Shown: in pieces, positions 49,464-61,940 of the stretch | How the letters are laid out: each line of letters opens with the position of its first letter | Numbering within the stretch: the stretch's first letter is position 1 | Assembly: GCF_021088345.1 (NCBI RefSeq) | Contig: NZ_CP088156.1 | Coordinates: 186,001-250,000, forward strand | Length of the DNA: 64,000 nucleotides | Direction of reading: 5' to 3' | Origin: Bradyrhizobium ontarionense | GTDB lineage: Bacteria; Pseudomonadota; Alphaproteobacteria; Rhizobiales; Xanthobacteraceae | Translations under genes and position numbers: made by a program | The notes under the pieces: model-generated | What the model saw: only the letters and a program-made list of their open reading frames with translations | What the model was told of the DNA's origin: nothing | Databases searched by the model: none

Positions 49464-50048
49464 TTACGCCGTCTTCGGCAGCCGCCCCATCAGATAGAAC
49501 TCGTCATTGGGGCGCATGCCCGTCACGTTCGCCATCCGGTTGGACAGCGCGAAGAACGCCGCGATCGCGGCGATGTCCCAGATGTCGTCGTCGCTGAATT
49601 CGTGGCCGGCCAGCGTCTTGAAGTCTGCGTCGCCGACCGTTTGAGCCTCGAGCGCGACCTTCATCGCGAAGTCGAGCATGGCGCGCTGCCGCGGCGTGAT
49701 GTCGGCCTTGCGGTAGTTGATCGCGATCTGGTCGGCGATGACGGGGCTCTTGGCGCGGATGCGCAGGATCGCACCATGCGCGATCACGCAATACTGGCAC
49801 TGGTTGGCGCTCGATGTCGCCACCACGATCATCTCGCGCTCGGCCTTGGTGAGCCCGCCGTCCTTGTCCATCAGCGCGTCGTGATAGGCGAAGAAGGCGC
49901 GGAATTCGTCCGGCCGGTGCGCCAGCGTGAGAAACACGTTCGGCACGAAGCCGCTCTTCTCCTGCACCGCCAGCAGGCGGCCGCGGATGTCGTCGGGCAG
50001 TGCGGCGATCGCGGGGACGGGAAAGCGGCTGATGGGGGCTTGCGTCAT
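49464..50048 (-). CDS. Carboxymuconolactone decarboxylase-like (peroxidase-related) enzyme
   Basis: A 194-residue AhpD-like protein. It carries the redox motif CQYCVIAHG with CxxC followed by His. The preceding Glu-rich helix LTKAEREMIVVATSSANQ is typical of the TIGR01926-type uncharacterised peroxidase-related enzymes. The ATG at 50048 gives the conserved start (MTQAPISRFPVP). A role in peroxide or thiol stress is inferred from the family. Convergent with the ParB-like gene. Confidence 0.88.
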   Translation of the reverse strand: MTQAPISRFPVPAIAALPDDIRGRLLAVQEKSGFVPNVFLTLAHRPDEFRAFFAYHDALMDKDGGLTKAEREMIVVATSSANQCQYCVIAHGAILRIRAKSPVIADQIAINYRKADITPRQRAMLDFAMKVALEAQTVGDADFKTLAGHEFSDDDIWDIAAIAAFFALSNRMANVTGMRPNDEFYLMGRLPKTA

Positions 50049-50162
50049 GGCAACGGGGCGTCCGGCTTGCATGTCCTATGCGCGAAACATAGTCGATCGC
50101 GGCCACGGCGCAATGGCGAGAGCGTTCGCCCCCCGCCGCCGATGGTCCCGGGATGCGCCGGC

Positions 50163-51917
50163 TCAGCGCAGCGGTTTCTTCAACAGCGAGAAGCGGTCCG
50201 GATCGAGCCCCATGGACGGTTGCAGCATCGGGGCATCCAGGGAGGTCGACAGGCTGCCGCGATCGCCACCGCTGCTGACGACGCCGCCGTCACCGGCTGC
50301 GTCCCGGCTTGACGTGGCGCCGCGCCAACGTTCCAGCACGGCGGCGACGAAATGCATGTCGTGTCCGGCGCTGACCGAGCGCACGGTGGCGATCGTCGCC
50401 TCGCTGCGCGGCAACTGATGCGGCGGCACCTCCTTGAAGCGCAGCCGCGTCGGCAGTGCGACGCCTTCGCCGAACGCGAGCACCTCGCGGGTGCCGAGCG
50501 AGGGCACGAACGACAGCAGGTTGGCGGCGGCGTCCGAGACTGCGGAGCGCAACAGTGACTGGTCGCGCTCGTTGGCGAGGCGCATCGTGAACAGCGTGTT
50601 GCACTGGGAGATGATGGTGGAGTCGAGCTCGGCCGGCCGCTGGGTGATCAGGCCGAGATAGACGCCGTATTTGCGGCCTTCCTTGGCGATGCGCGAGATC
50701 GCCTTGCGGGTCGGGCCGAAGCCGATCGAGCGGTCGGCGGAGGCGTAGCGGTGCGCTTCCTCGCAGACGAACAGCAGCGGCGAGACGCCGTCGCTCCACA
50801 GGCCGAAGTCGAACGCCATGCGGCACACCACCGAGACGACGGAATCGACGACCTCGGCCGGGAAGCCGGCGAGCTGCATCACCGTCATCGGCCGGCCGTT
50901 CGCGGGCAGGCGGAACAGATGGCTGATGACCTCCGCCATGGTGTCGCCGCCGACATTGGCGTTGTCGAACATGAAGGCGTAGCGCGGGTCGTTGCGCACG
51001 GTCTCGATGCGCGAGATCAGCTTGTGATAGATGATGCGCGACGAGCGGTTCTCGAGCTTGCCCATGCGCTCGTCGATCAGGTTGATCAGGTCGACCAGGC
51101 GATAGGGCACCGGCGTGTCGACCGTGTAGCCGACGGTCTTGGGATCGATGCGCTTCAGCCCGATGCGGTCCGTGCTCTGGTACTGGGTGTAGATGCCCTT
51201 CGCCAGCGGAATGACCTCGGCGAGGATGTCGAGCTCTTCCGGCACGCCCGGCCGGCCGCCGAACAGGACGTCGACGATCTCCTCGAAATTGAACAGCCAG
51301 AACGGCAGCTTCAGATTGCGCGGGTTCAGCACCAGCGCGCGCTCGCCGAAGCAGCGGCCATATTCGTTGTGGACGTCGAGCAGGAAGATGCGCAGGTTCG
51401 GCCGCGCCTTCAGGATCTCGTTGAGCAGGAGCGACACGCCGGTCGATTTGCCGACGCCGGTCGATCCGAGCACAGCGAAGTGCTTCGACAGCATCTCCTC
51501 GACATTGACGCAGGCGCGGACGGTGTTGTCCTGCTGCAGCGCGCCGATGTCGATATGGTCTCCCGCCGTCGGCGTGTAGATCGTGCGCAGCTCCTGGCTC
51601 GTGATCATGTCGACGGCGTCGCCGATGGTCGGGTAGTGGGTCACGCCGCGCTGGAACTTGGGACGCTCGGCAGGCCCCAGGATCTCGCCGAGCAGGTCCA
51701 CCGAGGCGGTCGCGACGTATTCGTCGGCATGCGAGAGGTCCTCGCTGGTGACCTCGGTGATGATCGCGATGATCGTGGCGCTCGGGCAGCGAATGCTGAT
51801 GAAACGGCCGACTGTCGCGCGGACGTCGGAGACGGTCATCTGCCTGGTCGACAGGATGCCGACGCGGGCCTGGGAGCCTCGTACCGAGATCACACGTCCG
51901 AAGGAAGTCACGGTCAT
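50163..51917 (-). CDS. HerA-like hexameric ATPase
   Basis: A 584-residue HerA/FtsK-type P-loop ATPase with an N-terminal HAS-barrel (about 1-95). Walker A is LGSTGVGKST. Walker B is LLFVCEEAHRYAS. A later arginine-rich segment reads ITQRPAELDSTIISQCNTLF. The C-terminal 60 residues are Ser/Gly-rich and variable. HerA proteins translocate DNA, often with the nuclease NurA or as part of defence systems. Here no NurA or SIR2 gene is adjacent, so this appears to be the common stand-alone rhizobial form. The ATG at 51917 matches the barrel start (MTVTSFGRVISVRG). Confidence 0.88.
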   Translation of the reverse strand: MTVTSFGRVISVRGSQARVGILSTRQMTVSDVRATVGRFISIRCPSATIIAIITEVTSEDLSHADEYVATASVDLLGEILGPAERPKFQRGVTHYPTIGDAVDMITSQELRTIYTPTAGDHIDIGALQQDNTVRACVNVEEMLSKHFAVLGSTGVGKSTGVSLLLNEILKARPNLRIFLLDVHNEYGRCFGERALVLNPRNLKLPFWLFNFEEIVDVLFGGRPGVPEELDILAEVIPLAKGIYTQYQSTDRIGLKRIDPKTVGYTVDTPVPYRLVDLINLIDERMGKLENRSSRIIYHKLISRIETVRNDPRYAFMFDNANVGGDTMAEVISHLFRLPANGRPMTVMQLAGFPAEVVDSVVSVVCRMAFDFGLWSDGVSPLLFVCEEAHRYASADRSIGFGPTRKAISRIAKEGRKYGVYLGLITQRPAELDSTIISQCNTLFTMRLANERDQSLLRSAVSDAAANLLSFVPSLGTREVLAFGEGVALPTRLRFKEVPPHQLPRSEATIATVRSVSAGHDMHFVAAVLERWRGATSSRDAAGDGGVVSSGGDRGSLSTSLDAPMLQPSMGLDPDRFSLLKKPLR

Positions 51918-52022
51918 GAAGCCTGTGGTGAATTGTTGAGCTGACAGCTTCGTCGCTGTGACTGGAAAATCTGTTAAGCGGCCCGCACTTTGCGCGTCAT
52001 GCGGCCACAATCCGGGCTCCGA

Positions 52023-52547: not shown

Positions 52548-52652
52548 GCTCGCTCGACGTCCCCCAGGCGCGCCGCGGTCGCGCAGGCGAGGGGCCGGCG
52601 CGCCGCGCTGTCCCATAGTCATGTGACGGCCGCCGGGCTCGTCTCCGACGAA

Positions 52653-52677
52653 GGGCCGTCCTCGCGGCCCTTTTTTT
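52653..52677 (+). terminator. Intrinsic terminator after hsp20
   Basis: Stem GGGCCG (52653-52658) and CGGCCC (52665-52670), loop of six bases, followed by seven T residues (52671-52677). It is the clearest Rho-independent terminator in the window, ending the Hsp20 transcript about 105 bp after its stop and before the dioxygenase gene. Confidence 0.88.
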
Positions 52678-52760
52678 CGCGAGGCTGTCCGGCTACTCTG
52701 TGCTCCAAGCAAGCGGTCCGCGGTATCGGACCGGGAAACGATCGAAAGGGAGACGAGGAG

Positions 52761-53678
52761 ATGGGCAAGCTCGCGCTGGCGGCGAAGATCACGCATGTGC
52801 CGTCGATGTATCTCAGCGAGCTCGATGGCCCGGCCAAGGGCAAGCGCCAGTCGGCGATTGACGGCCACATCGAGATCGGGCGGCGCTGCCGCGAGGCCGG
52901 CGTCGACACCATCGTCGTGTTCGACACCCATTGGCTGGTGAATGCCGGCTATCACATCAACTGCGCGCCGCATTTCGAAGGGCTCTACACCTCCAACGAG
53001 CTGCCGCACTTCATCGCCAACATGACCTACGCGTATGACGGCAATCCGGAGCTCGGCCGCATCCTCGCCGAGGGCGCCAATGCCGATGGCATCGCCACGA
53101 TGGCGCATGCGGCGACCTCGCTGACGCTGGAATACGGCACCTTGGTGCCGATGCGCTACATGAACCCCGACCGCCACTTCAAGGTGGTATCGGTCTCGGC
53201 GCTGTGCACCTCGCATTATCTCGCTGACAGCGCCAGGCTCGGCTGGGCCTTCCGCCGCGCCGTCGAGGACCACTACGAGGGCACGGTGGCGTTCTTCGCC
53301 TCGGGCTCGCTGAGCCATCGCTTCGCCCAGAACGGCACCGCCGACGCGTATCGCGACAGGATGTTCAGCCCATTCCTGGAGCGCCTCGATCACGAGGTGA
53401 TCCAGATGTGGGAGCACGGCGAGTGGCCGGATTTCTGCGACATGCTGCCGGAATATGCCAGCAAGGGCCATGGCGAGGGCTTCATGCACGATACCGCGAT
53501 GCTGCTGGGGGCGCTCGGCTGGAACCATTACGACCGCGGCGTCGAGGTGGTGACGCCGTTTTTCCCGTCGTCGGGCACCGGCCAGATCAACGCGGTCTTT
53601 CCGGTGACGCCGATGCCGCACGCGCTGGACGACATCGGCCGGCCGCGTGTGGCCGCGCTGGCGGGCGGACGGTTGTGA
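52761..53678 (+). CDS. Class III extradiol ring-cleavage dioxygenase (LigB/HpaD-like)
   Basis: A 305-residue protein of the LigB-type extradiol dioxygenase family, which uses Fe(II) to cleave catechol-type rings. Likely metal ligands are His12 in AAKITHVPSMY and the His in VVFDTHWLVNAGYH. Other family blocks are TSHYLADSARLGWAFRRA and FFASGSLSHRFAQNG. The overall sequence resembles 3,4-dihydroxyphenylacetate 2,3-dioxygenase. A good GACGAGGAG ribosome site precedes the ATG. The rest of a degradation pathway is not adjacent. Confidence 0.85.
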   Translation: MGKLALAAKITHVPSMYLSELDGPAKGKRQSAIDGHIEIGRRCREAGVDTIVVFDTHWLVNAGYHINCAPHFEGLYTSNELPHFIANMTYAYDGNPELGRILAEGANADGIATMAHAATSLTLEYGTLVPMRYMNPDRHFKVVSVSALCTSHYLADSARLGWAFRRAVEDHYEGTVAFFASGSLSHRFAQNGTADAYRDRMFSPFLERLDHEVIQMWEHGEWPDFCDMLPEYASKGHGEGFMHDTAMLLGALGWNHYDRGVEVVTPFFPSSGTGQINAVFPVTPMPHALDDIGRPRVAALAGGRL

Positions 53679-54141: not shown

Positions 54142-55281
54142 GGCGGGGAGGGCCTCTGGTCAACGCGACGTGATGGCTCATGCGCGAGGTTCCGCGCTCT
54201 CGCGACACCTCGTGCCCGAGTTTTGCAAATTCATCACCCTCGAAAATGAAGAGGGTGCAGGGAAGGCCGGGTGCAGGCCGCACCCATGGCCCGCCTGCAA
54301 CAAGAAAGCAGGCGGCAGTCACCACAGGATTGGCCGATACATCCGGCCTTCCCTGCGCGATGGGCTTACGGCTTATACGTGATCTCCCCGGGGACCGGGC
54401 TTTTTTGCCCCCGTCATCGGCGCATCATCAGCGCCGACTTGGCCTCAGCGTCGGGAGGCCAGAACCACACGACTTCACCGTCCCGTCAGCATCGTTCGTC
54501 CGCTCGCGAATAGCGCGCTGCAACGCCGACAGGCCATCGCATCCCGCACTCCACGTTCGTGACGATCGCGAAGCGCCCCTCATGACGAGCACGGGACGCG
54601 CGAGAAAATGGAGGTGATTTGCCCGACGGCGCAAGGCTTTTCTTCGCGACATGGTCGCCCGACGGGCAGAATTTATTAGGCCGTGTACGCGTAAGTCCGG
54701 CGGCGTGACGCTAGAAGGCTACGGTTGCTTACTCCTGCAGCGACCAAGGTCGTGCGGCACGGCAATATGTCGCGATGGGCAACGCACCTCTCAGCACAGT
54801 CCGGGAATGTCCCTTAAGGGTGAATTGCGGACATGACGAGGCAGTCCGATCAAATCGTGAATGACCCACAGCACACCCGTTCATTGGAGCATGTGGCTCA
54901 AGTATCTCGCTTCCGAAAATTGGCTGCTTCCACCAAGTATGAGATGGGATTGTCTATCTCGATCTCGTCGATATTAGCATCAACATTTCAGTTTCGGATA
55001 TTCAGCCCATCGGCCGACAGGTGAAAGGCAAGGCTCTGCGTCTGGGCGGTGGGGTAGTGCATGACGACGATCGAGGTGATTGAGGCGGATTTCCCTCAAG
55101 ATTTTCGTCAAAAAGCATCTCCGGCGAGTAGTATATGATAAAATGCTGCGCTGGGTTCTTCCTGACACGGCAACGAAACCTACAGGATTGAGTCCAGACC
55201 AGCGCGGCTGGCGGTTCATGCGGCGCACACGATGACGCTATTCATCCTTGAGACGTGGGAAGCGCGCGGGCGGAAAAAATA
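54142..55281. other. Gene-free left flank of the accessory island
   Basis: About 1.1 kb without a supportable gene. Dispersed repeat B occupies 54250-54580. From about 54650 onward base composition falls and scattered short frames show no domains. The last 150 bases hold the upstream region of the HEPN-like pair. No tRNA or clear attachment-site repeat was seen. Confidence 0.55.
54250..54580 (+). repeat. Dispersed repeat B, copy 2
   Basis: Inverted relative to copy 1 at 15000-15330. Matching blocks in order: GTGCAGGGAAGGCCGGGTG, CACCCATGGCCCGCCTGC, GCAGGCGGCAG, CCTTCCCTGCGCGATGGGCT, GCTTATACGTG, and the closing CGTGACGATCGCG. Frames inside look protein-like on casual reading, but both copies differ by indels, so they are not genes. 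Boundaries are approximate. Confidence 0.7.
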
Positions 55282-55860
55282 ATGGCAGAAACCTTTGATG
55301 AGCTATTAGATTTGTCAGAGTTCGATGGGCACTCCCAAATCATACAATTCGTCCACAAGGACAGTGACATAAACGCCTACAACAGCACATGGGAATTTGT
55401 GGCCTACAGCTATCAACGTGCCTTTGAAGAGTTGGCCAGGAAAGTCTTCGAAGAGGGAAGGCACAGGATTAGCAACCTCTCGAATCCGCTATTCTTTCTC
55501 GCGAGGCATTCGGTCGAACTTGCTCTCAAGAGCACGATCGACGAATACGCTAGGACCGACGAGAAAGAGCCTGAGCTGGCTGGACACCACCTGCTTGATT
55601 TGTGGGACCAGCTTGCTGGATACATGGACCGTTGGGGCGTGTCTGCAGACGATGATTGGGGCCGCATCGTTCGAAAACAGATTGCGCATATGCAGGATGT
55701 TGACCCGAAGGGTGACCGATTCCGATATCCGCTGGACATCAAAGGAAGGCCATTTGAGCCGAAGTGGGTTGAGATTGAAGGGCTGATACGGGCGCATAAT
55801 GGCATCACGACTTATTTGGATGGTAGCGCCACAATGCACGCTGAAGATTATCGAGGATGA
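55282..55860 (+). CDS. HEPN-like protein, first gene of a coupled pair
   Basis: A 192-residue acidic alpha-helical protein. The segment PLFFLARHSVELALKSTIDEY, followed by GHHLLDLWDQLAGYM, resembles the helix pair of HEPN-type domains. The canonical RxxxxH catalytic motif is not obvious in it. DNA here is much richer in A+T than the core genome. Its stop overlaps the next ATG (ATGA), implying linked synthesis. The ATG at 55282 lies after an A-rich leader with no strong ribosome site; an upstream GTG/ATG at 55255 is possible. Function unknown; a toxin/antitoxin or defence role is inference. Confidence 0.65.
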   Translation: MAETFDELLDLSEFDGHSQIIQFVHKDSDINAYNSTWEFVAYSYQRAFEELARKVFEEGRHRISNLSNPLFFLARHSVELALKSTIDEYARTDEKEPELAGHHLLDLWDQLAGYMDRWGVSADDDWGRIVRKQIAHMQDVDPKGDRFRYPLDIKGRPFEPKWVEIEGLIRAHNGITTYLDGSATMHAEDYRG

Positions 55861-56357
55861 GCAAGTCGTTTCGCAAATACTGGAAGGCGCGACCCTCTGG
55901 TGACGAATTGGCCAAAGTGTTCGCCGAGATGCGCGGCGAAAGTTCGAGAGCCGCTGTTCTGGTCGGGACGGCAATGCTTGAGGATGTTCTTCGAGGCGTA
56001 ATTGCCTTCTGGTGCGCGCACCTCGCTGAAACTGAGAAGTCCGATCTGCTGGACGGCATGGAACCGCTTTCGACCTTCTCCGCCAAAATCAAAGCTAATT
56101 ACGTCTTTGGCATGATAGGCGCGAAGACAAGGGACGATTTGGAAGTCGTACGCGAGATTCGGAATGCCTTTGCCCATGGCATCCGTCCGCTCGATTTCGA
56201 GAATCCGAGCACTGTTCGGCTGGTCGCCGGCATGAACGCAATGCGAGACGTGGGCTCACTCGCAGTGACGAAAGATGAGTTCGTCGAGGTCATCCATTTG
56301 CTGATCACGTTCCTTACGTCTCGAATGCAAAATCCTCGTTTCACATCGACGGTATAA
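55857..56357 (+). CDS. MltR/HEPN-like protein, second gene of the pair
   Basis: A 166-residue helical protein with strong resemblance to the mannitol-repressor MltR family. Key blocks are ESSRAAVLVGTAMLEDVLRG, then GMEPLSTFSAKIKANYVFGM and VVREIRNAFAHGIRPLDFE. RNAFAH is the HEPN-type RxxxxH motif often linked to ribonuclease activity. No mannitol operon is nearby. It is translationally coupled to the first HEPN-like gene. It may be a repressor-like partner or an RNase; the sequence alone does not decide. Confidence 0.75.
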   Translation: MSKSFRKYWKARPSGDELAKVFAEMRGESSRAAVLVGTAMLEDVLRGVIAFWCAHLAETEKSDLLDGMEPLSTFSAKIKANYVFGMIGAKTRDDLEVVREIRNAFAHGIRPLDFENPSTVRLVAGMNAMRDVGSLAVTKDEFVEVIHLLITFLTSRMQNPRFTSTV

Positions 56358-56625
56358 ATCATTTGGACTGAGCTTGCTTGCCAACATGACTAACCGCGAT
56401 CAGCGGACGTAGTCCGAGACCGCTCAGGCGGCCAACCGAGCCAGCTCAGAGTAGAACCCCGACATGAGGCGCTCCACCCATCATCGGTTGATGCAGAACA
56501 GAAAACCCGTCTTGCTTCTGGCTATCGCGTTCCTTGCTCCTTGCTTTATGGTACGGCCGGGCGGTGGCATTTTACTACTGTGTTGCTGATGCACTGGTCG
56601 GGTGCCGCCGAGAGAAGGGCGGCCC

Positions 56626-57441
56626 ATGGCTAAAATGTTCACGCAAATGCAGCTTCAAGCGATAGCCGATGCGCTGGGGGACACGGATGAAGGTCTCACG
56701 GGTTCCGAGATTGGGTACCTGCTTAGAACTGCACGAATGGATGATCCGGACGCGGGCCTGGCCAAGCGTCACCGCCTCTATAACGCGTTCGCCTTAGCGC
56801 AAAATACGAAGCAAGATCGGAGGCTGATTCTGGCGTTCATACGTTTTGCTATGAAACCTGAGCAGTACGCTCGCGACGCGCGGCGGTTCGAGCCCATGCG
56901 CACCAACTTAAACCGCGCTCTCGCGTTTGTTGGTTTGGCCGTAGAGCCCTCCGGTAAACTTGTGAGCATGGAGGCGGTCGAAACGCTTGGTCAAGCGCAG
57001 CGGCGAGCGAGCGCATTGCGCGCTGACCTCGAAGTAAGGCGTGTGCATCACGACGTGCTGCGTTTCTGCCGGGAAGAACTGCTCCAGGAGAATTACTTTC
57101 ATGCCGTCTTGGAGGCCACAAAGAGCGTAGCCGACAAGCTTCGAAGTCGAACCGGGCTAACCGATGATGGCGGAGTGCTAGTGGACCGCGTATTTGGCGG
57201 GGAGCATCCGTTACTCGCCATCAACGATCTGAAAAGTGAGAGCGAGAAGTCAGAACAGAAGGGCTTCGCCAACTTGGTAAAGGGCATGTTCGGGATGTTT
57301 CGTAACCCCGTTGCGCATGCGCCGAAAATCTCCTGGGCGGTCAACAAGGACGATGCCGAAGAGGTATTCACGCTGCTCTCTCTGGTTCACCGCCGCGTGG
57401 ATGCAGCAAAAATGCCACCTCGACCCGGCGCAGAGCAATAA
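56626..57441 (+). CDS. TIGR02391 (Hypoth_Ymh) family protein
   Basis: A 271-residue protein. The C-terminal half matches the Hypoth_Ymh family: NYFHAVLEATKSVADKLR, then TGLTDDGGVLVDRVFG, HPLLAINDLKSESEKSEQKG and FGMFRNPVAHAPK. The last contains an R-N-P-x-A-H motif like that of HEPN proteins. The N-terminal part (about 1-125) is helical and includes an RRLILAFIRFAM segment. Family members are common next to phage and restriction genes. ATG 56626 was chosen over an upstream GTG frame. A+T-rich composition indicates transfer. Confidence 0.8.
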   Translation: MAKMFTQMQLQAIADALGDTDEGLTGSEIGYLLRTARMDDPDAGLAKRHRLYNAFALAQNTKQDRRLILAFIRFAMKPEQYARDARRFEPMRTNLNRALAFVGLAVEPSGKLVSMEAVETLGQAQRRASALRADLEVRRVHHDVLRFCREELLQENYFHAVLEATKSVADKLRSRTGLTDDGGVLVDRVFGGEHPLLAINDLKSESEKSEQKGFANLVKGMFGMFRNPVAHAPKISWAVNKDDAEEVFTLLSLVHRRVDAAKMPPRPGAEQ

Positions 57442-57589
57442 ACCGGCGACGGGCTGACCCGTTAGTGTTTGAGCGCCTGTCCGTTTTGGGCTGTTCGCGT
57501 CGTTTCGACCGTACGCCGGACACTTCCGGCCTGCCCACCAACAGACATCAACAGACCTGCCCGACCACTATTGATAACGCCCGCCGTCT

Positions 57590-57751
57590 CTAAGCATCAT
57601 CGAGATGCAGCAGACCTAACTCCACAAGACAAATCACAAGCTCTTCCGCCTTTTCTTTAGACTTCGGATAATCATCTAACGACTGAGTATTATAACCCTG
57701 CTTGCGCAGGAGGGCTTTGCCGCATCGTTCAATAGCTTGAGCTTTCGTCAT
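57590..57751 (-). CDS. 53-residue small protein downstream of a TIR gene
   Basis: A short frame on the minus strand, preceded by an AAGGAT ribosome site. The 53 residues open MTKAQAIERCGKALLRKQGY and end VELGLLHLDDA, mostly helical and acidic at the C-terminus. It lies 62 bp downstream of the TIR gene in the same direction, so the two are probably co-transcribed. I recognise no family. It could be a regulator or antitoxin-like partner of the TIR protein (inference). Confidence 0.6.
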   Translation of the reverse strand: MTKAQAIERCGKALLRKQGYNTQSLDDYPKSKEKAEELVICLVELGLLHLDDA

Positions 57752-57813
57752 TCTAATTATCCTTGATCTGCTGGTCGCGCCAAATGATCGTCACTAGAAG
57801 CTCTGATGCACGT

Positions 57814-58821
57814 CTACAGCGGCGGACGCCGCACGTTTCCGCGGTTTGCCCGCGAGAGCAGGTCCAGGAAGATGCGCATGATGTGGTCGGCCAGCAGCGG
57901 CGCAGCAATGACCGTATTCCTGCCAGATTCCTTCCAGATCAGCTCTCGCGTCTCTGAAATATCGACCTTGAATTTATGCCGCTTCAATTCGGTCGGCTCA
58001 TGCATGACCCACGCGCGCTCACCGGGCAGGATCAGCGTACCCGAAAACTCTGAGGCGCGCAGAAAACACTCGCCGTTTTGCTGGTCATCTTCGACGCGAT
58101 TGAAGATCGGCTGGTGCCAGCCGATACCGAGGCTCACGAAACTGGAACGCATGACGCATACCGTGCCCTCCGCTTTGCCGACGATATTAAATCCATGATC
58201 GGCATTGGCCCTTTCCGCCAAGGCGATAACATCTTGTAGCGACTGTTTGATATTCGCATGCACGGTGCCTTCAATCCAGCGCCGGTCCCGCATCAAGGCC
58301 TCACGGTCTTCCAGGAACTTCGCCTCACGCTGAATGCGTGACATTTCAGTGATGGCATCGACTGGCACCAACTTGCCGCCGTGTTCCTGTACGCGGGCTT
58401 TGATGACGCCCACCAAGCCTTCCATGCCGTAGGCTTGCATTCCGAAGCGCACCTGAGTCGTCGGCACCCATTTCGGCGTTACACTCGTTTGGTCAAGGTT
58501 CACGAACACCAACCCAGGCCAGCCCTGCTTCAAGCACCGCTCGCCGATTGCTGTCTCTTCAACGCCGGTCCACGGCGTCTTACCCCAAGGATCGCGGTAT
58601 AGGACAACGACTACGCGCGAATCGAAGAATGGCTCTCGCATGCTTTCGAGCCCGTTGGTGCCGACCAGGTCTTCTTGGTTGTGTGGGAAGTAAAAGACCT
58701 TGAGGACCTCGCTTAGGCGGTCATAAAGTTCCTTCGCGATCACCTCATCCTTGGCCAGGAAGGATATCGCCACATCGTATTTCGGTTCGGTCGCGATCAC
58801 GGTTACAGCGGGTTTTGCCAC
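57814..58821 (-). CDS. TIR-domain protein
   Basis: A 335-residue protein with an N-terminal TIR domain (about 14-130): YDVAISFLAKDEVIAKELYD, then FFDSRVVVVLYRDPWG and the helix TPWTGVEETAIGER, where Glu88 or Glu89 after Trp84 is the likely NAD-hydrolysing residue. The C-terminal region (about 145-335) is of unrecognised fold, with a GTVCVMRSSFVSLGIGWHQP stretch, and may sense the trigger. The start is GTG at 58821. Prokaryotic TIR proteins often deplete NAD during phage infection; no Thoeris ThsA partner is adjacent. Confidence 0.82.
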   Translation of the reverse strand: MAKPAVTVIATEPKYDVAISFLAKDEVIAKELYDRLSEVLKVFYFPHNQEDLVGTNGLESMREPFFDSRVVVVLYRDPWGKTPWTGVEETAIGERCLKQGWPGLVFVNLDQTSVTPKWVPTTQVRFGMQAYGMEGLVGVIKARVQEHGGKLVPVDAITEMSRIQREAKFLEDREALMRDRRWIEGTVHANIKQSLQDVIALAERANADHGFNIVGKAEGTVCVMRSSFVSLGIGWHQPIFNRVEDDQQNGECFLRASEFSGTLILPGERAWVMHEPTELKRHKFKVDISETRELIWKESGRNTVIAAPLLADHIMRIFLDLLSRANRGNVRRPPL

Positions 58822-59335
58822 GGGAAATCCATTTGTAATTAAACTTTAAGTATATGGGGACACGAGGTCCCGCGCAACCGGCTGATAGGGAAGTTCGTTT
58901 TTTGCTCTCGAAGCCGTCCTTGGAGCCAATAGGAAGTCCGTGTCTCGCGAGTACCCGCAGTTGGGATGCCGCTGACATCCGCTTAGGGCTGAATGCGGAC
59001 GCCGGTAGCTCGGTTGCAAAGGTCGGCCTTGGGTCACTCACCACTTGGTCGAGCCGGCGGCAGGCCCGGTCGCTGTCCCCAGATCGCGACTATAAGACCC
59101 GGCTGATTGTGAGCACGCGCCGCCTCGCGGCATCGCGCCGCGCTTGCTGAGCGGGCCGCCGAGATCGGGCTGTGCCGCGATCCAGATCGATGATCCTTGC
59201 GCTGTGTGTTGGATGATCCGGCTGCATGATGGCACGCGGCGGCTCAGACCAGTGCGTGCGGGCTGTTGAAAACAGCTCTTTTGGTTGTATGCTTCTCCGC
59301 AACGAGACGTGGTGCAACCCCGGGGGAGGAACGGC
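58822..59335. other. Intergenic region between divergent genes
   Basis: A 514-base gap. Next to the TIR gene it holds an A+T-rich promoter-like stretch and a small inverted repeat (58857-58871). The composition then returns to high G+C by about 59040. No gene or repeat is recognised in the remainder. Confidence 0.5.
58857..58871 (-). promoter_or_regulatory. Small inverted repeat upstream of the TIR gene
   Basis: GGGAC (58857-58861) and GTCCC (58867-58871) are complementary around five bases. They sit just upstream of an A+T-rich run (TTTAATTACAA on the minus strand) that could be the promoter of the TIR gene. A possible operator; weak evidence. Confidence 0.3.
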
Positions 59336-60124
59336 ATGGCTGCCGGAGACGATGATGCGACTTACCGGGCGAGGCTCGGGTCGTATCTGGTGATCGGCTC
59401 GTCGATCGGCGTGCTGTTCCTGAGCATCGCCATCATCGTCGCGGCGGGAGTGGGGGGCGGCGCCAAGGACGTCAAGGACACCGCGCAGATCATCCTCACC
59501 GCCGTGCTGCCGCTGCTCGGCACCTGGGTCGGCACCGTGCTGGCGTTCTACTACTCCAAGGACAATTTCGAGGCCGCGAGCAAGGGGACGCTGGATCTGG
59601 TCCGCTCGATCTCGCAGCGGCTGAGCACCACGCGCGTGGCCGACCAGATGATGCGGGCAGGGACCATCATCAAGATCCAGGTGCCCGCGGGCAAGCAGGT
59701 GGTCGACCTCTTCGCCAAGGACGTCGAGGCGCTGTTCGGCACCGTCGGCGCCAATGGCCAGAAGATCTCGCGCCTGCCGATCGTCGCCAGCGATGGCGCC
59801 TGCGTCGGGTTTCTCCATCGCGGTCTGTGGCTCGAGATGCTGGTCAGCGGCGCCAAGCTGACGCCGCCGTTCAATGATGCCACCGATACACTGGCGAAGC
59901 TGCTGCCACTGTCCTGCCAGTCTCGGCTCGGCAGCACCTTCGCCGACTTCGTGACCAACAGCGTGGCCTACGTCGCCGAGGCGGCGAGTCTGGCGGACGC
60001 GAAGGCGGCCATGGAGGCGAAGCCGCAATGCCAGGACGTCGTGGTGACGGCAACCGGCAAGAGCGACGCGCCCATGCTGGGCTGGATCTCGAACGTCGAC
60101 ATCTCCCGGCTGTCGGTCGCCTGA
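59336..60124 (+). CDS. Two-helix membrane protein with CBS-like pair
   Basis: A 262-residue protein with two membrane helices (about 17-40 and 52-73), then a cytoplasmic part resembling a tandem CBS pair. The first half is VADQMMRAGTIIKIQVPAGK through ISRLPIVASDGACVGFLHRG. The second is TFADFVTNSVAYVAEAASLA through MLGWISNVDI. CBS domains usually bind adenosyl nucleotides. A strong GGGGGAGGA ribosome site precedes the ATG. It converges on the second TIR gene with 52 bp between stops. Family not recognised. Confidence 0.75.
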   Translation: MAAGDDDATYRARLGSYLVIGSSIGVLFLSIAIIVAAGVGGGAKDVKDTAQIILTAVLPLLGTWVGTVLAFYYSKDNFEAASKGTLDLVRSISQRLSTTRVADQMMRAGTIIKIQVPAGKQVVDLFAKDVEALFGTVGANGQKISRLPIVASDGACVGFLHRGLWLEMLVSGAKLTPPFNDATDTLAKLLPLSCQSRLGSTFADFVTNSVAYVAEAASLADAKAAMEAKPQCQDVVVTATGKSDAPMLGWISNVDISRLSVA

Positions 60125-60176
60125 CGCGGGTCAGCGTGGCATTGTCCGTCGGGACAGGCGTCCCGACGGTGCGCGC

Positions 60177-61739
60177 TCAGATCGCAAAACTCTGCTTCAG
60201 ATTGTCCAGCGCCTTCACGGTGACGGTCGAGTTGATCTGCGCCGAGGTCTCGCGGAACGAGCGCAGCGTGGCGATCCACTGCTCGGCGGCCGCCGCGAAG
60301 GCCGGGCTGGCGAGGTCGGTGCCGAGGATCTTCTCGGCCGCGGCCATCAGCTGCGAGCGGGCTCCGTACCATGTGTCCTGAAGCTGCTTGGCGAGCTTCA
60401 GATGGTCGCCGTCGGCGCCGAAATACTGCCGGATGGCCGCGACCTGATCCAGCTTGAGGGCACGCGCCTCCTCCTCGATCAGCAAGAGCTCGCGGACCAG
60501 CTGCCGCACCTTGTACAGGATCTTCGCCGGCTCGTGCTCGAGGATGAAGGAATCGACCGACAGCGCGCTGTCGGGCTCGACGAAGATGAAGCGGTACTTG
60601 GCCGCCACGTTGATGAAGCCGAGAATGGACGAGGTGGCGTTGTCGCCGAGCAGGCGGGTCGACAGCTTCTTGATGAAGTAGACATGCACCAGCTTCTGGC
60701 CGTTGTAGTAGTCGAGCTGCCGGGTCACGATGACGCGGAAGATTTCGTCATCGACCGATTTCAGGATCTGGTCGCTGTCGGTCGGCGTCTCCGACGAGAT
60801 CGCGCTGACGACGGCCTGCTCGATCGCCACCAGGATGGAGGATGCGCCGAGCGTGTCACGGACCCGCATCTTCTTGCGGAACTCACCCCATTTCAGCGTC
60901 TCACGCGGCTCGGCGATGCCGAAGATCTCCAGTGCCCGCGAATGCGGCGTCAGCGTCGTGTCGTCCGGAATGGTGCCGATGGCCTGGTCGCCGGGCGGCT
61001 TTGGCAGCAGGAATTCGATCAGCCGCTGCTCGACCGAGTGGCGCGTCACGCGCATGCTCATGCTGTCGAACAGCTTGCCCTTCAAGGTCGGGATGATCTC
61101 GGTGGCGATCTTTTGGCGACGCTTGCCGCGCAGCCGGTCCAGCGTGTCGCGGTCCTCGTTCAAAGGCGGCGGCAGCCGGCTCTCGGCGCGCTCGGCGATG
61201 TCGAGCATGACGCGTGCCAGCGCATCGGGATCGTCGACCGACTGCGCCGATTTGGCGACATAGTCCGCGCGCGGTCCGGACAGGTCGTCGGTCTCGACCT
61301 CCATGTTGATGCCGAGAATGCCTTCGCCGGTCGGCGGCGTCTCGCCGCAATAGAGATAGATGATCCGGCGTGACGTCTCGCCGGTGCCCTGCTTCTTCTC
61401 CTCATCCATCAGCGCCTCGAAGAAGCCGAGCTCCCAGCCGGTGTAGCCGTGGCTCTTCTTGAGCTGGCCGGTGTAGAGCACGACGAGGAAGTCGGATTTG
61501 CGCAAGCCCGCGCGCAGGTCCTGGCGGATCTCGTCGCTGGCCTCGATCGATTTGGAATCGAGGAAGATCCGGACCCGGTCGAAGATCGTCTCGCTCAGCG
61601 CCTGCATGGTCTGATAGACGGCCTGGGCGACGTCGTGATCTTCGGACGCATAGGAAATGAACACGCCGGCGGGACGATAGGGGCCTAGATCATTGGCGGA
61701 TCGGGCTGCGGCGGCCATCGCGACTGGAGCTAACGCCAT
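60177..61739 (-). CDS. TIR-domain protein with long C-terminal region
   Basis: A 520-residue protein. The N-terminal TIR domain (about 24-170) has AGVFISYASEDHDVAQAVYQ, the BB-loop-like FLDSKSIEASDEI, then DFLVVLYTGQLKKSHGYTGW and ELGFFEALM, with Glu103 after Trp102 as the likely catalytic residue. The 350-residue C-terminal region is helical and of unrecognised family. ATG 61739 follows a TGGAGAG ribosome site; an upstream TTG at 61760 is less likely. Base composition is close to the host, unlike the left part of the island. Confidence 0.85.
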   Translation of the reverse strand: MALAPVAMAAAARSANDLGPYRPAGVFISYASEDHDVAQAVYQTMQALSETIFDRVRIFLDSKSIEASDEIRQDLRAGLRKSDFLVVLYTGQLKKSHGYTGWELGFFEALMDEEKKQGTGETSRRIIYLYCGETPPTGEGILGINMEVETDDLSGPRADYVAKSAQSVDDPDALARVMLDIAERAESRLPPPLNEDRDTLDRLRGKRRQKIATEIIPTLKGKLFDSMSMRVTRHSVEQRLIEFLLPKPPGDQAIGTIPDDTTLTPHSRALEIFGIAEPRETLKWGEFRKKMRVRDTLGASSILVAIEQAVVSAISSETPTDSDQILKSVDDEIFRVIVTRQLDYYNGQKLVHVYFIKKLSTRLLGDNATSSILGFINVAAKYRFIFVEPDSALSVDSFILEHEPAKILYKVRQLVRELLLIEEEARALKLDQVAAIRQYFGADGDHLKLAKQLQDTWYGARSQLMAAAEKILGTDLASPAFAAAAEQWIATLRSFRETSAQINSTVTVKALDNLKQSFAI

Positions 61740-61940
61740 GACGCTCTCCAAACTCGGCAAAACGACTTAAAATATCAGAGGTCATCTTGATTGCGATCGC
61801 GCCGGAATGCAACCATTGACCCTGGAAGTGTCATGATACCTGATCACGACAGCCGGGTCCGCGTGCAGGCATTTACGCGCGTTGAACTTCGGGGCTGTCG
61901 GCACGACCAATGCGGACGAGTCCGAGGCGTTGTCGACCGC

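Follow-up and report, generated by a model that had tools for sequence, protein, structure and literature searches.

Homologues of six defence-type genes in an accessory insertion rarely occur together

An accessory insertion of about 7.7 kb (54.15-61.86 kb) in the genome of Bradyrhizobium ontarionense carries six open reading frames (ORFs), here called genes A to F, and is probably a small defence island gathering several independent modules of the abortive-infection type, not a six-part machine. The window analyzed is a stretch of 64,000 nucleotides, positions 186001-250000 of the 8.4-Mb single-contig genome, and coordinates below are window positions (Table 1). A sequence-only reading of this window had named the same six ORFs as a candidate undescribed immune locus, and all six are present as named. 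The set is best read as separate modules, one of them damaged, and gene A, from the damaged module, is the island's main and most interesting lead. HEPN and TIR immune effectors are common, yet control and triggering are understood for only a minority of them. A small HEPN-fold protein that recurs beside different effectors may be a control part that they share, which makes it a concrete candidate for experiments.

Table 1. Features of the island and its edge, in window positions.
Feature	Position	Strand	Basis
Accessory insertion between Nudix gene and SH3-domain gene	54150..61856		Missing in L116-L119; different gene in L115
Dispersed repeat-like stretch, island left edge	54160..54640		70-80% identity matches in six other loci compared
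AbiJ-like (Abi_C) remnant, last 38 codons and stop, first part deleted	55166..55282	+	Homology to L098, L101, L102
Gene A, predicted HEPN-fold protein without conserved Rx4-6H motif	55282..55860	+	Predicted fold, alignment
Gene B, MtlR/DUF4145-type HEPN, RNAFAH, overlaps end of A	55857..56357	+	Family matches, motif
Gene C, TIGR02391/Ymh HEPN, RNPVAH, PADLOC PD-Lambda-3_B	56602..57441	+	Family matches, motif
Gene D, TIR and C-terminal region of about 180 residues	57814..58821	-	TIR_2 in family, alignment
Gene E, two hydrophobic (membrane) segments, weak CBS match	59285..60124	+	Sequence features
Gene F, TIR and about 330 C-terminal residues, mostly helical	60177..61760	-	TIR_2, model, alignment

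Homologues of the six genes rarely occur together, and the genes therefore look like separate modules. We inspected 20 neighbourhoods, 17 around homologues of A, C or F and three plasmid neighbourhoods of C, and a second member of the set was found in one, where A adjoins B. In this genome (G150) the A-B order recurs, with 36 and 35% identity and the two genes again overlapping. The gene ahead of them has a hydrophobic start, and ordinary metabolic genes lie further out. The alignment of the G150 homologue of A covers only about 116 residues, and this homologue may be broken beyond them. In the window, A and B overlap by 4 bp. A B-type neighbour is present in one of the six genus neighbourhoods inspected for D, that in G073, where the D homologue (74% identity) adjoins an MtlR-type HEPN gene with the motif RNAFSH, genes there being named by eye. 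This G073 locus (L208 698-7996) holds a recombinase, a GmrSD-type gene, the D-type TIR gene, the MtlR-type HEPN gene and a KAP-type NTPase gene in a row, which is a candidate defence system of its own.

The insertion, the domains, the conserved residues, the deletion and the gene neighbourhoods are direct observations; anti-phage function, enzymatic activity and trigger we infer from family membership and genomic context. B and C would act as HEPN ribonucleases cutting cellular or phage RNA when triggered, and D and F as TIR enzymes destroying or converting nicotinamide adenine dinucleotide (NAD) once their C-terminal regions sense infection. Either outcome would stop the phage by stopping the cell. 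A would be a non-catalytic HEPN-fold partner that survives beside B after most of an AbiJ-like effector gene was deleted.

The insertion site is empty or differently filled in close relatives

We compared the site with nine relatives that match the left flank well. Five are informative, at 89-92% identity in that stretch; in the other four (L120-L123) the right flank was not reached or not kept. In L117 the stretch from the Nudix gene to the SH3 gene measures about 0.2 kb, and in L116 both flanks join within 24 bp, with the Nudix gene mostly missing. L118 and L119 have the Nudix gene followed, within 0.15-0.27 kb, by the stretch starting at about 62.55 kb in the window, the SH3 gene being unmatched there. 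L115 has both flanks with another insert between them, which contains a 706-residue ORF (L115 5863-7983) and indicates that the site is variable. The extent given for the island follows from these distances, as the flanks are 7.7 kb or more apart in the window and close together in relatives.

Census counts agree with an accessory element. Five of the six genes, B being left out, were searched for in 195 genus genomes (own included, expectation value (E)<=1e-3), and matches were found for A in 18, C in 10, D in 11, E in 2 and F in 8. These are often distant, F homologues outside the host genome reaching 24-29% identity; C exceeds 60% in three other genomes. In order-level draws, own genome included, the A family (E<=1e-6) occurs in 18 of 397 genomes and the F family (E<=1e-10) in 3 of 367. 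The absence from the site in five close relatives together with the patchy spread in the genus supports the accessory status proposed in the sequence-only reading, whose A+T-rich left part is likewise apparent: GC content is 0.53-0.56 across 55-59 kb compared to about 0.65 around it. GC content at third codon positions (GC3) is 0.58-0.70 in A-D and 0.89 in E and F, both of which have core-like GC, and this split suggests at least two acquisitions or sources.

Genes B and C match HEPN families and keep the RN-x3-H motif

Gene C is a member of an already known family, with a full-length PADLOC match to PD-Lambda-3_B (PDLC03987, E 1.5e-82, residues 12-270). In addition, it strongly matches Hypoth_Ymh (E 8e-41) with the motif RNPVAH inside the match, and RN-x3-H is kept in 9 of 11 C-type rows aligned (window included), one other row being cut off and one having K for R. 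A PDB sequence search with C alone gave no match. C thus shares the B component and the HEPN motif with PD-lambda-3, but no second component was found among 8 scanned proteins that include all six island genes; that such a component exists rests on the B suffix of the model. PD-lambda-3 is termed an abortive infection system in one source (PMC13190303) and is placed under PD-(D/E)XK nucleases in another (PMC10952713). Relatives of C at 62-69% identity top 123 plasmid records, three of which were viewed: C overlaps a restriction-type gene with adjoining ABC-three-component genes on a Ti plasmid and lies near ABC-three-component genes on a Rhizobium plasmid, the third context being taken up below. 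More distant relatives are present in nine phage records, six of them streptococcal, and both B and C match phage protein families.

Gene B gives weak DUF4145 and MtlR matches, below the gathering score and with RNAFAH inside them, as well as a weak match to the MltR regulator family. RN-x3-H is kept in all four B-type rows aligned, window included. PMC3710099 assigns both MtlR and DUF4145 to the HEPN superfamily and states that 60% of MtlR members conserve the motif. B resembles these families in its helical region and RN-x3-H but differs in the low scores of its matches and in the absence of a recognised mannitol operon, no mannitol-operon gene having been seen by eye beside B in the window, G150 or G073. 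Family match and motif thus make both proteins putative HEPN ribonucleases, strongly for C and weakly for B. We build this case on family and fold matches since a short Rx4H motif alone is weak evidence.

Genes D and F represent two TIR architectures

Gene D taken alone does not reach the Pfam cutoff. Of 36 members of its family that were scanned, however, 32 match TIR_2, and W84 and E88 are invariant in 36 aligned rows. The family comprises 425 relatives at E<=0.001, and relatives at 36-40% identity are found in five viral contigs. No PADLOC model matched D, a plasmid search found nothing and a PDB sequence search with the D profile gave no match. Just downstream of D, on its strand, a 53-codon ORF of low GC (57590-57751) may encode a small protein.

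Gene F matches TIR_2 above the Pfam cutoff, and its E110 is invariant in 21 rows of a family of 46 proteins, own included. In the predicted structure (mean predicted local distance difference test score (pLDDT) 78), residues 28-193 match the TIR domains of SARM1, plant RUN1 and SPARTA and the related DNPH1 fold, and PDB profile matches include AbTIR. PADLOC matches are confined to the TIR part, with PDC-S66 at 5.5e-8 and ThsB profiles at 1e-4 at best; the same part weakly matches nucleoside deoxyribosyltransferase (E 0.034). The C-terminal region gave helical-bundle structure matches alone, and a weak match of profile positions 305-366 to ribosomal uS19 was treated as chance. A viral scan with F found nothing. 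The TIR domain of F thus matches PDC-S66 by profile and SARM1, RUN1 and SPARTA by structure, its profile matches to Thoeris ThsB being weak, and no ThsA match was obtained among the 8 PADLOC-scanned proteins and no Argonaute family was seen here. With their TIR domains and conserved glutamates, D and F are candidate TIR NADases for which NAD cleavage is putative, and their families represent two TIR architectures without assignment to a named system.

One F homologue of 862 residues (P0039) has ParA-type ATPase domains beside the TIR domain. At a locus of G179 (L113 7858-13689) a patatin-like gene precedes a distant relative of F, accompanied by a KGG-motif ATPase gene and a second TIR gene on the opposite strand (by eye). 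The host genome itself has a second F-like gene at 7.42 Mb (L112, 24% identity).

The only other genus match of gene E is in G160, which is not among the F-family genomes. Since no E match was present in six F-family regions either, we rejected the convergent E-F pair as a unit. A Rhizobium leguminosarum plasmid (L194, L214) contains E-like and F-like genes separated by about 32 kb. A further TIR gene is found within a few kb of each, and the annotation divides the F-like gene into two ORFs.

Overall, the protein features listed in the sequence-only reading are recovered: two HEPN-type RxxxxH motifs, now seen to be conserved as RN-x3-H in B and C, a further HEPN-like helical protein corresponding to A, two TIR domains with a Trp-Glu pattern, its glutamate invariant in both families and its tryptophan in that of D, and a CBS-like membrane protein corresponding to E.

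Gene A is the leftover of a two-gene module with an AbiJ-like partner

The ORF of gene A opens at GTG 55255; in most homologues the start codon corresponds to ATG 55282. A has no Pfam match, and a PDB sequence search with its profile gave none. The predicted structure (pLDDT 74, predicted template modelling score (pTM) 0.72, residues 1-37 poor) matches HEPN proteins by title in 17 of the 24 best rows and in most or all others on further grounds, so that A is predicted to have the HEPN helical fold. The Rx4-6H catalytic motif is not conserved in 20 aligned sequences. In this respect A differs from HepT of HEPN/MNT toxin-antitoxin systems, as it does in that neither adjacent gene is MNT by Pfam. 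Named close homologues belong to Bradyrhizobium and one Bradyrhizobiaceae metagenome-assembled genome; a genome-collection scan returned five loci, four of them already in the compared set. A second A-family gene is located at 3.99 Mb of the host genome (L155).

In L098, L101, L102 and L127, an Abi_C gene lies upstream of A, and its end overlaps A. The upstream partner matches Abi_C in four relatives, and the L098 protein, scanned with PADLOC, matches AbiJ (E 1.5e-15). In the window, codons 55166-55279 have 82-89% protein identity to the C-terminus of this gene in L098, L101 and L102. Window positions 54952-55165 and 55166-55860 align to L102 8504-8717 and 9482-10175, the intervening 764 bp being missing in the window, and the R-x6-H stretch present in relatives has by inspection been lost. 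Judged by these alignments, gene A is the leftover of a two-gene module whose AbiJ-like partner gene is mostly deleted: where relatives have an intact Abi_C effector gene, the last 38 codons remain here. AbiJ is not known to include a partner gene of the A type. Two genomes have a 260-residue protein without clear Pfam family upstream of A (L099 8780-9510, L100 9032-9814), which is broken into two frames in one of them.

The A family adjoins different defence-type genes

We carried out a census of 40 A-family loci (E<=1e-10), counting as neighbours same-strand ORFs within 150 bp. No such ORF is present in 17 loci and at least one in the other 23, with 29 in total, and 13 of the 29 match nuclease, HEPN or restriction families at E<=1e-4: Abi_C (4), Mrr_cat (2), HNH_5 (2), PDDEXK_4 (1), SduA_C (1), Methylase_S (1), HEPN_RiboL-PSP (1) and MtlR (1). 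A-family genes elsewhere thus directly adjoin AbiJ-like, MtlR-type HEPN, Shedu, PDDEXK_4, Mrr, HNH-like or HsdS genes. Because the four Abi_C neighbours are more than 90% identical to each other, the 13 matches correspond to about eight partner types. Three neighbours match other families (aminoglycoside kinase, amidohydrolase, DUF2971). By subtraction, another 13 neighbours have no family match at this threshold, one of which (L176) contains an RNALAH motif by eye. Among 79 non-adjacent ORFs of the same loci, used as control, about seven defence-type matches are visible (SWI2_SNF2/T1R 2, Methylase_S 2, N6_Mtase 1, GmrSD 1, putAbiC 1), a lower bound as 25 of 63 families are visible; the control is conservative since its ORFs come from the same loci. 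ORFs were called with a simple GC-position rule and some neighbours are probably spurious. It is also possible that the weakest loci (L168-L170) are not true relatives, and for L172 the HNH_5 match is below the gathering score.

This distribution raises the tentative and somewhat unlikely possibility that the A family is a portable, non-catalytic HEPN-fold regulatory subunit which, through neighbour swapping, came to serve many unrelated immune effectors as their sensor, brake or assembly partner. These would include HEPN ribonucleases of the AbiJ, MtlR and RiboL-PSP type, Shedu, PDDEXK_4, Mrr and HNH nucleases. If true, a single conserved A module would control RNA- and DNA-cleaving immunity alike.

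Separate modules compared with alternative readings

In a scan of 8 proteins with PADLOC and NCBIfam no full set was found for PD-lambda-3, Thoeris, retron or AbiJ systems, in agreement with the earlier statement that no complete named system can be recognised. One coordinated immune locus could be imagined, in which the TIR proteins would produce a signal to which the HEPN and membrane proteins react. Six defence-type genes in one insertion, the direct B-type neighbour of D in G073 and the shared Rhizobium plasmid of E-like and F-like genes would fit such a locus, but a mixed set of such genes can share an insertion without forming one system. Homologues of A, C and F have a second member nearby in one of the 20 neighbourhoods, the genes lie on both strands and hence not on one transcript, and the GC3 split points to more than one acquisition, making a coordinated locus quite improbable. 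The proposal of an undescribed immune locus consequently holds as far as a defence-type accessory island is concerned, while a single system is not borne out, C belongs to a described family and the module of A is damaged. Among the literature matches listed, nothing was found by title and start of abstract that describes the island or the A family. Least probable of all is that the genes serve regulation or metabolism, the MtlR-type and CBS proteins being ordinary regulators. The weak MltR match of B and the weak CBS match of E are compatible with it, yet no mannitol-operon gene was recognised by eye beside B in the window, G150 or G073; C and D match no metabolic family, and F does so only through its weak deoxyribosyltransferase match in the TIR part.

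An alternative for A and B, which may be correct but is doubtful, is a toxin-antitoxin pair in which the HEPN ribonuclease B is bound and silenced by the catalytically dead HEPN protein A until infection. The 4-bp overlap, its recurrence in G150 and the catalytic HEPN genes of other families adjoining other A relatives are consistent with this arrangement. Against it, the closer homologues of A (L098-L103, L127) have no recognised B alongside, and A relatives also adjoin DNase-type genes (Shedu, Mrr, PDDEXK_4), which argues that A is not a dedicated HEPN antitoxin. It is unlikely that the island is mostly made up of decaying remnants under no selection. Decay could be indicated by the mostly deleted AbiJ-like gene and by A homologues that are split into two frames, those in G171 and G169. 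However, the reading frames of B, C, D, E and F are uninterrupted throughout; the lengths of C, D and F are similar to those of their homologues, and the motifs of B, C, D and F are retained. An island of independent defence modules remains the probable reading, with several observations weighing against it. The one PDB hint for B is a mannitol operon repressor (E 0.096), and MtlR-type HEPN proteins can be regulators according to PMC3710099. Some A-family genes adjoin ordinary genes, an aminoglycoside kinase and an amidohydrolase gene being among the 29 neighbours, and 17 of the 40 loci have no close same-strand neighbour of A. Gene E carries no role assignment, one of the three plasmid contexts of C viewed, that on a Methylobacterium plasmid, has no recognised defence gene, and neither an integrase nor a convincing flanking direct repeat was recognised at the island.

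Other features of the window

The left flank contains a HerA-like stretch (49464-52010) with a match in 195 of 195 genus genomes. Its part at 50163-52010 strongly matches PADLOC HerA, yet given this distribution we counted it as core and not as a defence gene. Rfam at gathering thresholds identified no RNA in the window, and promoter- and terminator-like sites occur in numbers near chance. A search of 60 related genomes, own included, matched the LigB-type dioxygenase gene near the island (52623-53675) in 16, with about 31-51% identity elsewhere, although the closest relatives retain this gene with 84-85% DNA identity.

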